Source: Glycomyces arizonensis DSM 44726
Lineage (GTDB): Bacteria > Actinomycetota > Actinomycetes > Mycobacteriales > Micromonosporaceae
Direction: 5' to 3'
DNA length: 64,000 bases
NCBI RefSeq assembly: GCF_000482705.1
Contig: NZ_AXWO01000003.1
Span: 310,001 to 374,000, forward strand
Shown: positions 368 through 4,942 of the stretch, in pieces
Numbering within the stretch: position 1 is the first letter of the stretch
How the letters are laid out: each line of letters begins with the position of its first letter
Notes under the pieces: generated by a model
Told to the model about the DNA's origin: nothing
Databases searched by the model: none
The model's input: only the letters and a program-made list of their open reading frames with translations
Translations under genes and position numbers: made by a program

Positions 368-1546
368 GTGTTGCGATGGATGACAGCTGGAGAATCACAC
401 GGACCCGAGCTCGTGGTCACCCTCGACGGCCTGCCCGCGGGCGTCGAGCTGACCACCGGCGCCGTGGCCGCCGAACTGGCCCGCCGCCGCCTCGGCTACG
501 GACGCGGCGCCCGCATGAAGTTCGAGGCCGACCAGGTCGGCTTCATCGGCGGCGTCCGCCACGGCCGCACCCTCGGCTCGCCCGTCGCCATCAAGGTCGG
601 CAACACCGAGTGGCCCAAGTGGGAGCAGGTCATGGCCGCCGACCCCGTCGACGAGGCCGTCCTGGAAGGACTCGCCCGCAACGCGCCCCTCACCCGCCCC
701 CGGCCCGGCCACGCCGACCTGGCCGGGATGCAGAAGTACGACCACGCCGACGCCCGCCCCATCCTCGAGCGCGCCTCCGCCCGCGAGACCGCCGCGCGCG
801 TCGCCGGAGGCACCGCCGCCAAGGCGTTCCTGAAGCAGGCCTTCGGCATCGAGATCGTCTCCCACGTCAAGGCCCTCGGGCCCGTCCGCGTCAAGGACGG
901 CACCGTCCCCGCCCCGGCCGACGCCGAGGCCGTCGACGCCGACCCGATGCGCTGCCTCGACCCCGACGCCTCGGCCCGCATGGTCGCCGAGGTCGACGCC
1001 GCCAAGAAGGACGCCGACACCCTCGGCGGCGTCGTCGAGGTCCTCGCCTACAACGTCCCGCCCGGCCTGGGCTCCCACGTCCAATGGGATCGCAAGCTCG
1101 ACGCCCGCCTCGCCACCGCGCTCATGTCCATCCAGTCGGTCAAGGCCGTCGAGATCGGCGACGGCCTCATGCAGGCGAGCGTCCGCGGCTCGGCCGCCCA
1201 CGACGAGATCGTCCCCGGCGCCGCAGGCGTCGAGCGCCTCACCGACCGCGCGGGGGGCCTCGAAGGCGGCATCACCACCGGCCAGCCCGTGCGCGTCTCG
1301 GCGATGCTCAAGCCGATCTCGTCCCTGACGAGGCCGCTGCGCACCGTCGACACCGCCACCGGCGAGGCGGCCGAGGCCATCAACCAGCGCTCCGACGTGT
1401 GCGCCGTCCCCGCCGGGGCCGTCGTCGCCGAGGCGATGGTCGCCTACGTCCTCGCCGAGGCCGCCCTCGAGAAGTTCGGCGGCGACTCCGTCGCCGAGGC
1501 CAGGCGCAACTGCGAGTCCTACCTCGAGCACCTGCGGGTGAAGTGA
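368..1546 (+). CDS. aroC: chorismate synthase
   Basis: Chorismate synthase converts 5-enolpyruvylshikimate 3-phosphate to chorismate with reduced FMN, the last common step of aromatic amino acid synthesis. The 392-residue product is full length. It has the N-terminal GESHGP motif (residues 8-13, including the active-site His11) and the Arg-rich [12 protein letters not shown] segment at 39-50 that binds FMN and substrate. The start is GTG at 368. No Shine-Dalgarno sequence is clear, and a weak -10-like CAGACT lies about 6 nt upstream, so the transcript may be leaderless. The stop codon overlaps the ATG of aroKB (TGATG), which implies translational coupling. Confidence 0.96.
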
Positions 1547-3102
1547 TGGGACTCGTCGTCATCGTCGGCCCGCCCGGCTCGGGCAAGACCACCGTCGGCA
1601 CCGCGCTCGCCGAGCGCCTCGGCACGACCTTCCGCGACACCGACGCCGACATCGCCGCCGCGGCCGGCAAGCCGATCCCGGACATCTTCATCGACCACGG
1701 CGAGGACCACTTCCGCGCGCTCGAACGCGAGGCCGTGCGCCGCGCCGTCGCCGAGCACGACGGCGTCCTCGCGCTCGGCGGGGGAGCGGTCATGGCCGAG
1801 GCCACCCGCAAGCTCCTGGCCGACGTGCCCGTCGTCCACCTCCTGGTCGACCTCGCCGACGCCGTCAAGCGCACCGAGATCGACCGCGGCCGCCCGCTCC
1901 TGGCGGTCAACCCGCGCGCCACGCTCCGCAGGCTCATGGACGAGCGCCTCCCGCTCTACCGGGAGGTCGCCGACATCGAGATCGACACCAGCGGCAGGGC
2001 CGTCGAGGACCTGGCCGCCGAGATCGCCGGGAAGCTCGCCACCCGCACCGTCACCGTGCACGACGCCGAGGCGCCCTACCCGGTCCTCATCGGACGCGGC
2101 GCCGTCGAGCGCCTGCCCGAGCACCTGGGCCGCGCCTCCCGCGTCGCAGTCCTCCACACCGCCAGCACCGCCGCCCTCGCCGAACGGGTCGGCTCGCTCG
2201 CGCCCGAAGGCGTCGAGACCACCCTCATGGAGATCCCCGACGCCGAGGACGGCAAGTCGATCGCCGTCGCCGAGCAATGCTGGGAAGCGCTCGGCGCCGA
2301 AGGCTTCACCCGCACCGACCTCGTCGTCGGCGTCGGCGGGGGAGCGGTGACCGACCTGGCCGGGTTCGTCGCGGCCTGCTGGCTGCGCGGCGTGGCCGTC
2401 GTCCACGTCCCCACCTCGCTGCTCGGCGCGGTGGACGCCGCCGTGGGCGGCAAGACCGGCGTCAACACCGCCGCGGGCAAGAACCTCGTCGGCGCCTTCC
2501 ACCCGCCGAGCGCGGTCCTGGTCGACCTCGACAACTTCGCGACCCTCCCGAAGCGCGACCTCGCCGCGGGCATGGCCGAGATCGTCAAGGCCGGGTTCAT
2601 CGACGACCCGGCCATCCTCGAACTCATCGAGCGCGACCCCGAGGCCGCCCTCGACGCCTCAGGGCCCGTCCTGGCCGAACTGGTCGAGCGCGCCATCGCC
2701 ATGAAGGCCCGCGTGGTCGCCGCCGACCTCAAAGAGGGCGGCCTGCGCGCGATCCTCAACTACGGGCACACCTTCGCGCACGCCATAGAGAAGCTCGAGC
2801 ACTACCGCTGGCGCCACGGCGACGCCGTCGCCGTCGGCATGGTCTACGCCGCCCACCTCGGCGCCATCACCGGCCGTATCGACCTCGTCGAGCGCACGAG
2901 ATCGCTGCTCTCGGCGATCGGCCTGCCCGTCACGTACGAGGCCGGCCGCTGGGACGAGATCAGCGCGGTCATGAAGATCGACAAGAAGAACATCGGCGCC
3001 ACGCAGCGGTTCGTGCTGCTGGACGCGCTCGGCCGGGCCGTCGTGGTCGACGACGTGACCGCCGAGCAGCAGCGCGAGGCGTATGGGAGACTCACCGCTT
3101 GA
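1546..3102 (+). CDS. aroKB: fused shikimate kinase / 3-dehydroquinate synthase
   Basis: One uninterrupted 518-residue frame carries two enzymes usually encoded by adjacent genes. Residues 1-165 are shikimate kinase: Walker A GPPGSGKT at 8-15, substrate-binding Asp33 and Arg57, the Gly78-Gly80 turn and an RGRPLL lid at about 114-119. Residues 166-518 are dehydroquinate synthase: NAD-binding [30 protein letters not shown], and the metal-ligand [11 protein letters not shown] and HGDAVAVGM segments. There is no stop, start or linker of note between the halves. The TGA stop lies inside the right end of the TnpB element that follows (TTGA at 3099-3102). A fused enzyme would run the second and fifth steps of the shikimate pathway. 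Confidence 0.93.
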
Positions 3103-3330
3103 CATCCTTCACCCGCCTGTGGGCGGGCTGTTCCCGGCTTGCGGTCCGCTTGGGGCGGGCCGGCTACGGTTGGGTTCCCGTTTCGACGGGCCGTGCCGGG
3201 CATGCCCGGTCTTACCGGCCCTCCGCGGGCGTTTCAGGTGTCCGCATGCCCTGCGGCCACCAGGCGTTTGCCTTCACGTCTGATGTTGATCTCGGCGTTG
3301 GCGTCCCGGTCGTGGACCGCCCCGCATCCG
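3099..3330 (-). ncRNA. candidate omega (reRNA) guide RNA of TnpB
   Basis: TnpB nucleases use an RNA transcribed from the 3' end of tnpB through the element's right end. Here about 135 nt of structured noncoding sequence follow the tnpB stop: a CCGGGCATGCCCGG palindrome (3196-3209), a CCCG/CGGG hairpin (3177-3190) and the terminal CCCGCC/GGCGGG hairpin (3112-3127). The RNA would end at 3099 and its guide would be read from the flanking aroKB sequence (3079-3098). The 5' end is a guess placed inside tnpB. Confidence 0.4.
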
Positions 3331-4418
3331 CACGCCCATTCCCGCACCGACAGACCCTCCAGGCCCTTCGGGCCGGTCAACGCCCCGCAGGCCGAGCACA
3401 GCTGCGTGGACGGGAAGTACCGGTCAATCCAGGCGAAGGTGCGCCCGGTGCGTGCGGCTTTGGATTCGAGCCGGGCCAGGAACATACCGAGTGCGGCGTC
3501 ATGTACGGACTTCGATGCGCGGCAACGCGCCAGGCCCTTGACGCACAGGTCTTCGACGTACACGGCTTGGTTCTCGCCGATGATCGCCTTGACCTGTTTG
3601 TTAAGCCAGTCGTCTCGCTTTGCTCGGGTCTGCTCGTGAAGGCGCGCCACTTTGAGCCGAGCCTTCTCCCGGCGTGCCGACCCCTGCTGCTTGCGCGAGA
3701 GGGCGCGCTGGGCCTTTTTCAGTTTTCGCTCCGCCTGGCGGAAGAACTTCGGCGACTCGATCGTCTTCCCGCCGCGCAGCACAGCGAAGGACTTGAGCCC
3801 GAGGTCGATGCCGGTCTCGGCCTCGGGGTCGGCGATCGGCTCGGCCATCTCCGTACCGTCGTCGACAGCGACGACGAAGCTCGCGTAATATTTCCCGGTC
3901 GGGGTCTTGATGACCGTCACGCTGGAGGGCTCTGCGGGCAGTTCCCGCGACCAGGCGATTTTGAGTTCGCCGACCTTCGCGATGTACAACCGGCCGTTCG
4001 CCTTCAGGGTGAATCCGCGCCGCGTGTACCGGGCGGTCTGTGTGTTCGAGCGGCGCTTGAACCGCGGCGGCCCGATCCGGCCACCGGCCCGCTTGCCGGT
4101 CAGGGAGTCGAAGAAGTTCCGGTACGCCTGATGGCAGTCGCGCAGCGCCTGCTGCAACGGCACCGTGGAGACCTCGGCCAGCCAGGCCCGCTCGGGAGTG
4201 CGTTTCGCCGCGGTGATGAGCCGCTTGTCCAGCTCGGCCGTCGATGGGTAGGCCAGCTGCGAGCGGTGCGCGGCCTTGCGGGCGGCCACGGCGTCGTTGT
4301 ACACCACCCGAACGCACCCGAACACCCGCGCCAGCGCCTGGCGCTGCGGGCGGGTCGGGTAGATCCGAAAGGAGTACCGAAGATGCACGCGAGCAACCGT
4401 AGCCAAGAGGTACGACAT
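3234..4418 (-). CDS. tnpB: TnpB-family RNA-guided nuclease (IS605 OrfB)
   Basis: With the ATG at 4418 the product has 394 residues, normal for TnpB, although the frame stays open to 4466. The N-terminal [15 protein letters not shown] is the usual OrfB opening. The split RuvC nuclease is intact: Asp205 in GIDLGLKSF, Glu289 in [11 protein letters not shown] and Asp372 in [12 protein letters not shown] zinc ribbon uses Cys341/Cys344 (CSAC) and Cys363/Cys365 (CGC). All catalytic residues are present, so it may be active. TnpB proteins are RNA-guided DNA endonucleases that cut donor sites next to a short motif. It is antisense to the aro operon and has no tnpA partner. Confidence 0.92.
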
Positions 4419-4516
4419 TCCCTCGTCCCCAGGCTCGCTGGCGCAGGACCGCGGGCAGACGATCACCCCGGTTTCCTTCCAGCCCGAAAAGACGGGGCAT
4501 TCTCTGGGAGGACCGC

Positions 4517-4942
4517 GTGAAGACGTACGTGCTCAACGGCCCCAACCTCAACCGCCTCGGCAGGCGCGAACCGGCGATCTACGGCTCGCAGACGCTCGAC
4601 GACCTCGCCGAGCTGTGCCGGGGGACCGGCGCCGAGCTCGGCCTGGAGGTCGACTTCCGGCAGACCAACGCCGAGCACGAGCTCCTCGAATGGCTCCACG
4701 AGGCCGCCGACGAGCAGACCTCGGTGGTGCTCAACGCCGCCGCCTGGACGCACACCTCGGTGGCCGTCGGCGACGCCTGCGCGCAGCTGACCGCGCCGCT
4801 CATCGAGGTCCACCTGTCCAACGTCTTCACCCGCGAGCCGTTCCGCCACCACTCCTACGTCTCGGCGCACGCCGTCGGCGTCATCGCGGGCCTCGGCTTC
4901 GGCGGCTACACCGCCGCGCTCCGCCACCTCGCCGCCCTCTGA
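4517..4942 (+). CDS. aroQ: 3-dehydroquinate dehydratase, type II
   Basis: This enzyme removes water from 3-dehydroquinate, the third shikimate-pathway step. The 141-residue product matches type II size. It has [17 protein letters not shown] (residues 7-23) with catalytic Arg17 and Tyr22, Asn73 in NAAAWTHTS, His99 in EVHLSN and Arg110. The start is GTG at 4517 with GGGAGG at 4506-4511, which now lies inside the left end of the TnpB element. Before insertion the gene probably overlapped aroKB by GTGA. It converges with the amidohydrolase gene, 14 bp apart. Confidence 0.94.

Follow-up and report, generated by a model that had tools for sequence, protein, structure and literature searches.

A 64,000-nucleotide stretch of the Glycomyces arizonensis DSM 44726 genome (contig NZ_AXWO01000003.1, positions 310,001 to 374,000; here called the window, with positions counted from its first letter) contains a TnpB element that lies on the minus strand at 3099-4516 and splits aroKB from aroQ (Table 1). 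The two junctions read ..GGGAGACTCACCGC/TTGACATCC....TGGGAGGACCGC/GTGAAGACG.. (slashes mark the element borders). At the first, aroKB ends in GCT TGA (3097-3102); at the second, ACCGC (4512-4516) is followed by an intact aroQ start codon, GTG, at 4517. When the flanks are joined without the element, they read ACCGC/GTGAAG, and the last aroKB codon has gone from GCG to GCT upon insertion, a silent change. A first-pass annotation of this DNA had claimed that the element landed exactly at a stop/start overlap, ends in TCAA (TTGA on the plus strand), leaves both reading frames unchanged, and brings a ribosome-site motif (GGGAGG, 4506-4511, 5 nucleotides before the GTG) with its left end, and these observations are confirmed. 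We retrieved 30 aroQ loci, 23 of which had their junction displayed (1 being the window's own and 19 belonging to the same genus; 7 fell outside the display pattern), and all 19 same-genus relatives lack the insertion, with aroKB and aroQ meeting in an overlapping ATGA or GTGA. The empty junctions of two loci (L012 and L013; L numbers denote loci) read GAG TGA. As to the likeness to the operon neighbors that had also been proposed, aroC and aroKB overlap by GTGA only if aroKB starts at GTG 1543, and by TGATG if it starts at ATG 1546.

Table 1. Features of the aroKB/aroQ locus and of the inserted element, in window coordinates
Feature	Position	Strand	Basis
aroKB (shikimate kinase/3-dehydroquinate synthase)	1546..3102	+	Sequence; Pfam SKI, DHQ_synthase, DHQS_C
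Flank immediately 3' of the right end; expected omega-RNA guide segment (antisense 3' end of aroKB)	3079..3098	-	Adjacent to the TCAA end; guide role by analogy to ISDra2 reRNA
Third base of last aroKB codon (GCT) plus stop TGA, both element bases	3099..3102		Sequence
Right-end terminal TCAA (TTGA on +)	3099..3102	-	Sequence; occupied-site gene call STOP for window copy L141
Right end/omega-RNA scaffold	3099..3248	-	28-sequence alignment; covariance model R1 match G000:C3:313099-313248
tnpB open frame	3234..4466	-	Pfam HTH_OrfB_IS605, OrfB_IS605, Cas12f1-like_TNB; phmmer to TnpB 8h1j/8bf8
Left end, outer 48 nt, predicted hairpin ~19-38 nt from tip	4469..4516	-	Copy comparison; single-strand folds
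GGGAGG, Shine-Dalgarno-like, left-end-derived, 5 nt ahead of aroQ GTG	4506..4511	+	Sequence; copy-class comparison
Target motif TCAC (GTGA on +), aroQ start codon plus original aroKB stop	4517..4520	-	Sequence; empty sites
aroQ (type II dehydroquinase)	4517..4942	+	Pfam DHquinase_II

By family, the element is unremarkable: it belongs to the tnpB-only (IS1341-type) group of IS200/IS605. TnpB comprises 410 amino acids counted from the first GTG, and judging from where its homologues begin, it may actually start at GTG 4388. Its helix-turn-helix, RuvC, and zinc-ribbon parts all score above the Pfam cutoffs (PF12323, PF01385, and PF07282), and the best Protein Data Bank alignment shown spans residues 31 to 410 and matches regions that we take to be the RuvC motifs. 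An omega-RNA fold extends up to the element border at the right end, with compensatory changes in 21 of 31 predicted pairs across 28 sequences; the region had no match in Rfam. While the right-end hairpin covaries, a left-end hairpin was predicted at about the same place in six left ends and clearly outperformed shuffled sequences in one of the six. Empty sites and the list of motifs bear out that copies land 3' of a fixed short motif and leave no target duplication, a few copies deviating. No TnpA similarity was found upstream of the window tnpB, and TnpA occurs in this genome only as a C-terminal Y1_Tnp remnant (the TnpA query itself was confirmed as Y1_Tnp); the element was therefore filed as tnpB-only rather than as a complete IS605 element.

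Across 22 Glycomyces genomes, 70 tnpB matches were found in 16 (E values up to 1e-80), and all 70 regions were taken. Left-end borders were derived from copy comparison and right ends from a hidden Markov model, with copies cut by contig ends excluded. One part of the tree has TCAC or TCAT before the left end, and the other mostly has (G)CTAC; a few copies deviate (TTTGC in L142, GTAC in L145 and L176, ATAC in L194, and CCAT in L208). Read in reverse, TCAC/TCAT and CTAC are NTGA and GTAG, and TCAA, in which most Glycomyces copies end, holds a reversed stop codon in register with the motif. Fourteen reconstructed junctions were searched for in the genus, and all 14 had spanning alignments; the joint was spanned without a gap at L141 (the window copy, queried as a joined 400-nucleotide aroKB/aroQ junction; 21 alignments), L143, L147, L148, L161, L144, L154, L155, L162, and L173. 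Just 5' of the left-end hairpin, TCAC copies tend to carry GAGGA-type bases, and CTAC copies those of the GAGAG/GGAGTG type. In IS608, a left-end guide pairs with the target motif, and a difference of this kind is as expected if the same pairing operates here. A second copy in the window genome, L142 (G000:C1:390579-391805), has the deviating TTTGC flank and the 5-base repeat GATGT at both ends; its border is unsure.

Since target motif and right end hold reversed stops in the same register, an element that inserts against the direction of a gene, at its stop codon, swaps one stop for another. The fetched loci served to train a codon model, and with this model and a small gene caller, we asked whether the gene facing each right end terminates exactly at the TTGA of the element. 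In a first set of 50 Glycomyces right ends, this TGA was the exact stop of the opposing gene in 19 (18 of 42 TCAA ends, 1 of 1 TCAT end, and 0 of 7 CCAA ends). A second set of 54 further right ends from the genus, obtained with a right-end covariance model (40 newly fetched and 14 in loci already in hand), gave 16 exact stops, all among its 37 TCAA ends and none among 17 other ends. Pooled, 35 of 80 TCAA/TCAT ends versus 0 of 24 other ends lie at a stop (Fisher P = 1.2e-5), or 34 of 79 when the window copy is excluded. One of the 24, L333, ends in TCAG and thus also holds a reversed TGA; moving it over gives 35 of 81 versus 0 of 23 (P = 2.6e-5). In neither set did an opposing gene run into the element and end in another register. 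The covariance model had returned 125 rows, from which approximately 17, mostly the weakest, were left out; five rows outside the counts comprise a TCAA end at a stop (L213), a TCAA end elsewhere (L310), two CCAA ends not at stops (L212 and L214), and an unusable one (L203). L213 (G000:C8), a TnpB element more distant from the others but in the same genome as the window, has its TCAA exactly at the stop of the opposing gene. CCAA ends form a sizeable group of 19 in Glycomyces, none of them at a stop codon.

As a null, we took 462,582 Glycomyces bases with 449 genes from our own caller. Stops account for 2.0% of all TCAC/TCAT/CTAC sites and for 13.9% of those outside genes; by motif, the latter figure is 104 of 883 for TCAY (11.8%) and 47 of 205 for CTAC (22.9%). 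The 34 of 79 right ends at stops exceed both the pooled rate of 13.9% (P = 3e-10) and the higher CTAC rate of 22.9% (P = 6e-5). At two loci, L168 and L173, the stop that the element displaced has since been lost: relatives carry TAG where the occupied genomes read TGT or TTG, so that the element's TGA is the remaining stop. A gene ending at such a junction reads xx/T TGA instead of xx/N TGA or xx/G TAG, and by its sequence the encoded protein keeps its length and changes in its last residue at most; the third base of the last codon becomes T, which, for example, replaces Lys with Asn at L154 and L182. Pieces of eight of the affected genes were scanned with Pfam and gave ABC permeases (L147 and L148), a class II fructose-bisphosphate aldolase (L154), a DUF4272 protein (L155), ketopantoate hydroxymethyltransferase (L166), a UbiA-type prenyltransferase (L168), a UbiE-type methyltransferase (L182), and alanine dehydrogenase (L201). 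The stop codon of the same class II fructose-bisphosphate aldolase gene (fba) is occupied in two species (L154 in G013:C41 and L355 in G007:C8), by right ends of clearly different lineages (R1 scores of 160 and 54 bits).

Start codons enter the picture in one subclade. The window copy groups near four copies, L143, L147, L148, and L161 (tree support 100/99), all of which abut an ATG (P = 0.006). The aligned relatives keep this ATG, although the base following it is not constant: one of the two relatives of L143 has a different base there, as do one of the two for L148 and one of the four for L161. The pattern reaches beyond stop/start overlaps: among copies with both ends resolved, only L141, L147, and L148 occupy one, and in the other copies at stops, no downstream start overlaps the stop that was replaced. 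The proposed check of whether copies of this family lie at such overlaps more often than expected thus showed an excess at stop codons and, in the nearest subclade, at start codons. At L147 and L148, the gene to the right of the ABC permease looks by eye like a partner permease; the scanned piece of the L147 gene had no Pfam match. All five start copies carry GGAG six bases ahead of the start codon, and GGAG lies 4 to 8 nucleotides from the left tip in five of five start copies versus 2 of 24 others, a contrast that may reflect a single ancestral property, since four of the five come from one clade. The comparison concerns presence and spacing of GGAG; duplex energies between left ends and the 16S end were dropped because other pairings dominate. 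At aroQ, the GGGAGG would serve as the ribosome-binding site from which translation is driven.

In other genera of the Micromonosporaceae, the left-end motif is GCTAC. Both ends could be resolved in 16 copies from these genera, each of which has TnpA similarity upstream; 10 of them are intragenic, 4 are intergenic, and 2 lie at a stop. By the same rule, 6 of 26 Glycomyces copies are intragenic (P = 0.02), or 4 of 26 if L145 and L173 are taken as decayed stop sites (P = 0.003); TnpA similarity upstream was seen in 6 of 68 Glycomyces copies and was extensive in 4. As the two groups differ in age, clade, and host, this is a comparison rather than an experiment. With the GCTAC copies elsewhere mostly intragenic, survival of harmless insertions explains the Glycomyces pattern better than targeting does. 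The first-pass annotation had offered two readings, and it is partly supported: its suggestion that selection kept a silent insertion is favored, whereas its idea that the element ends suit landing at overlaps is supported only as a fitness of the ends to be tolerated there, given that related tnpA-bearing GCTAC elements mostly landed inside genes. tnpA-bearing GCTAC relatives outside Glycomyces were recorded at L383 to L385, L393, L394, L401, L405, and L410 to L412. In all 10 intragenic insertions, gene and tnpB run in the same direction, which would be expected of a motif that serves as a Tyr codon, TAC. A TnpB search returned none in three genomes from another family of the order and hits in two of five genomes of a further genus; among five other-genus loci that were read, one (L218) lies at a stop.

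Taken together, we favor an IS1341-type element that inserts wherever its short motif leads it, fits stop for stop at gene ends, and owes its distribution in Glycomyces to survivorship, an explanation to which, as a whole, we assign a probability of about 0.77. A number of observations weigh against it. We had predicted beforehand that the excess at stops would recur for this omega-RNA family in other Micromonosporaceae genera, and this failed: 7 of 55 right ends lie at a stop, which equals the rate outside genes, yet is more than the 3.1% for GCTAC sites as a whole (P = 0.0015), and at two of the 55 (L397 and L402), the opposing gene ends in another register. Among 40 loci of distant TnpBs (two of them too short), whose right ends are unmapped, 3 of 26 opposing open reading frames end in TTGA, which is no evident excess. 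The Glycomyces counts are not fully independent if sites are shared by descent, as may be the case for L170/L178, L163/L164, and L151/L174 (L326 and L351 also look alike). Furthermore, the other ends, 19 of 24 being CCAA, may go with a different target motif; the contrast between TCAA and other ends is therefore no proof that the stop matters. Ancestral junctions aligned only roughly at L145, L188, and L201, and L142, L150, L152, L159, and L172 fell outside the junction query and have no empty site. In the start subclade, L143 and L161 lie at starts only, with no overlapping upstream gene, and our caller placed the L161 start at +30.

The most serious competitor, in our opinion an unlikely one, is targeting, in which the transposase or the element ends, over and above the four-base motif, actively seek out stop codons or stop/start overlaps. 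The 35 of 80 TCAA/TCAT copies at stops and the four of four closest relatives at ATG starts would fit such a preference, as would the occupation of one fba stop codon by two right-end lineages; against it speaks the predominantly intragenic position of tnpA-bearing GCTAC copies in other genera, and a short motif is enough once disruptive insertions have been purged. Far less credible is a single lucky insertion at aroKB/aroQ in a family that has nothing to do with gene ends. Any one insertion into a 4-bp overlap could happen, and 49 such overlaps were called in the 462,582 bases of the null, but the exact register is common to 34 of 79 further TCAA/TCAT copies, two more stop/start overlaps are occupied (L147 and L148), and empty sites speak against the notion that wrongly placed right-end borders created the pattern.

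The repeat GCGGT (ACCGC on the plus strand), which the window copy has at either end, resembles a 5-bp target duplication, and together with the GATGT at both ends of L142, it might indicate a transposon that is not of the IS605 type. We give this hardly any credence: L143, L147, L148, and L161 have no such repeat, and TnpB, the omega-RNA, and the TCAA end are IS605 features. GCGGT was rejected as a target duplication on the basis of these sister copies, and the first-pass view that insertion occurred without duplication agrees with them and with the empty sites. Equally remote as the lucky insertion, in our estimation, is a domesticated element that serves operon regulation, through antisense transcription or by RNA-guided binding to aroKB/aroQ, instead of being a harmless passenger. 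In its favor, tnpB is open although TnpA was found only as a remnant in this genome, and the expected guide does fall within aroKB. However, the window TnpB aligns over most of its length with nuclease TnpBs, as nuclease-dead regulators are not known to do, and the insertion is missing in the 19 displayed relatives.

Under the survivorship explanation, TnpA acting in trans would have moved the window element, insertion being possible wherever TCAC/TCAT or CTAC occurs, directly 3' of the motif and without target duplication. Disruptive copies would then be lost and stop-for-stop copies persist, which would make stop sites common among Glycomyces copies. In the window subclade, the left-end GGAG furthermore leaves the downstream start of an ATGA or GTGA with a ribosome-site motif, and at a stop/start overlap (aroKB/aroQ, L147, and L148), both genes remain whole. 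TnpB and its omega-RNA, guided by the 3' end of aroKB, may in addition cut empty alleles and thereby hold the site, as proposed for ISDra2 in the accessible text of PMC8612924; the guide role of 3079-3098 likewise rests on analogy to the ISDra2 reRNA described there. We consider it possible, if rather doubtful, that the motif (TCA/CTA) and the right end (TCA) were themselves selected as reversed stops in matching register, i.e., as a built-in "gene-end adaptor" that one subclade extended by a ribosome site; other IS605 motifs that read as reversed stops, TTAC for instance, may then share this origin.

Several known systems resemble this one in part. IS608 (ISHp608) of Helicobacter pylori has target TTAC, right end TCAA, and guide GAAT. 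The Glycomyces copies share its TCAA end, and most of those aligned have GAAT immediately ahead (5') of the right-end hairpin (GAAC in the window copy), but differ in target motif, although TTAC is likewise a reversed stop (GTAA). Some integrases enter the 3' ends of genes (tRNA genes, guaA, and others) and restore them; these, too, insert at a gene end that is made good, but they carry a longer copy of one particular gene's end, while here, the last bases of the transposon fit any gene. With the IS1341-type group, the window element shares the TnpB domains, right-end omega-RNA, insertion 3' of a short motif without duplication, and TCAA end, the differences being the TCAY and CTAC motifs, the stop-for-stop register, and the left-end ribosome-site motif. 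ISDra2 TnpB (8h1j and 8bf8) is a homologous nuclease (225 bits) whose guide RNA is also derived from the right end (PMC8612924, in the part available); its target, TTGAT, lacks a reversed stop in the register of the Glycomyces copies. A TCAA right end has been reported for 16 of 39 IS605 elements (accessible part of PMC9956272). IStrons, as far as the available text of PMC4227781 describes them, are likewise mobile elements rendered harmless to the interrupted gene, but a group I intron splices them from the RNA, whereas here, an element end replaces the stop codon in the DNA. No statement that IS605 elements replace or rebuild stop codons was found in the openly accessible portions of the literature (including PMC7290912, PMC4227781, PMC9956272, PMC3119063, and PMC8612924), and we provisionally regard the stop-for-stop fit as new.

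The explanation is a simple one, open to testing, for how a short-motif transposon can persist in the operons of a compact genome: its end replaces the displaced stop. TnpB insertion sites in sequenced genomes are survivors, so that purging as well as target choice shapes the motifs and site preferences deduced from them. Should the fit of motif to end have been selected in its own right, it would represent a host-sparing adaptation written in three bases. Finally, in two relatives, another tnpB copy with a CCAA right end lies just downstream of aroQ, within approximately 80 to 280 bases of its end (L175, G006:C3:28804-29976, and L180, G019:C317:121748-122905); the genus has thus seen more than one insertion near aroQ.

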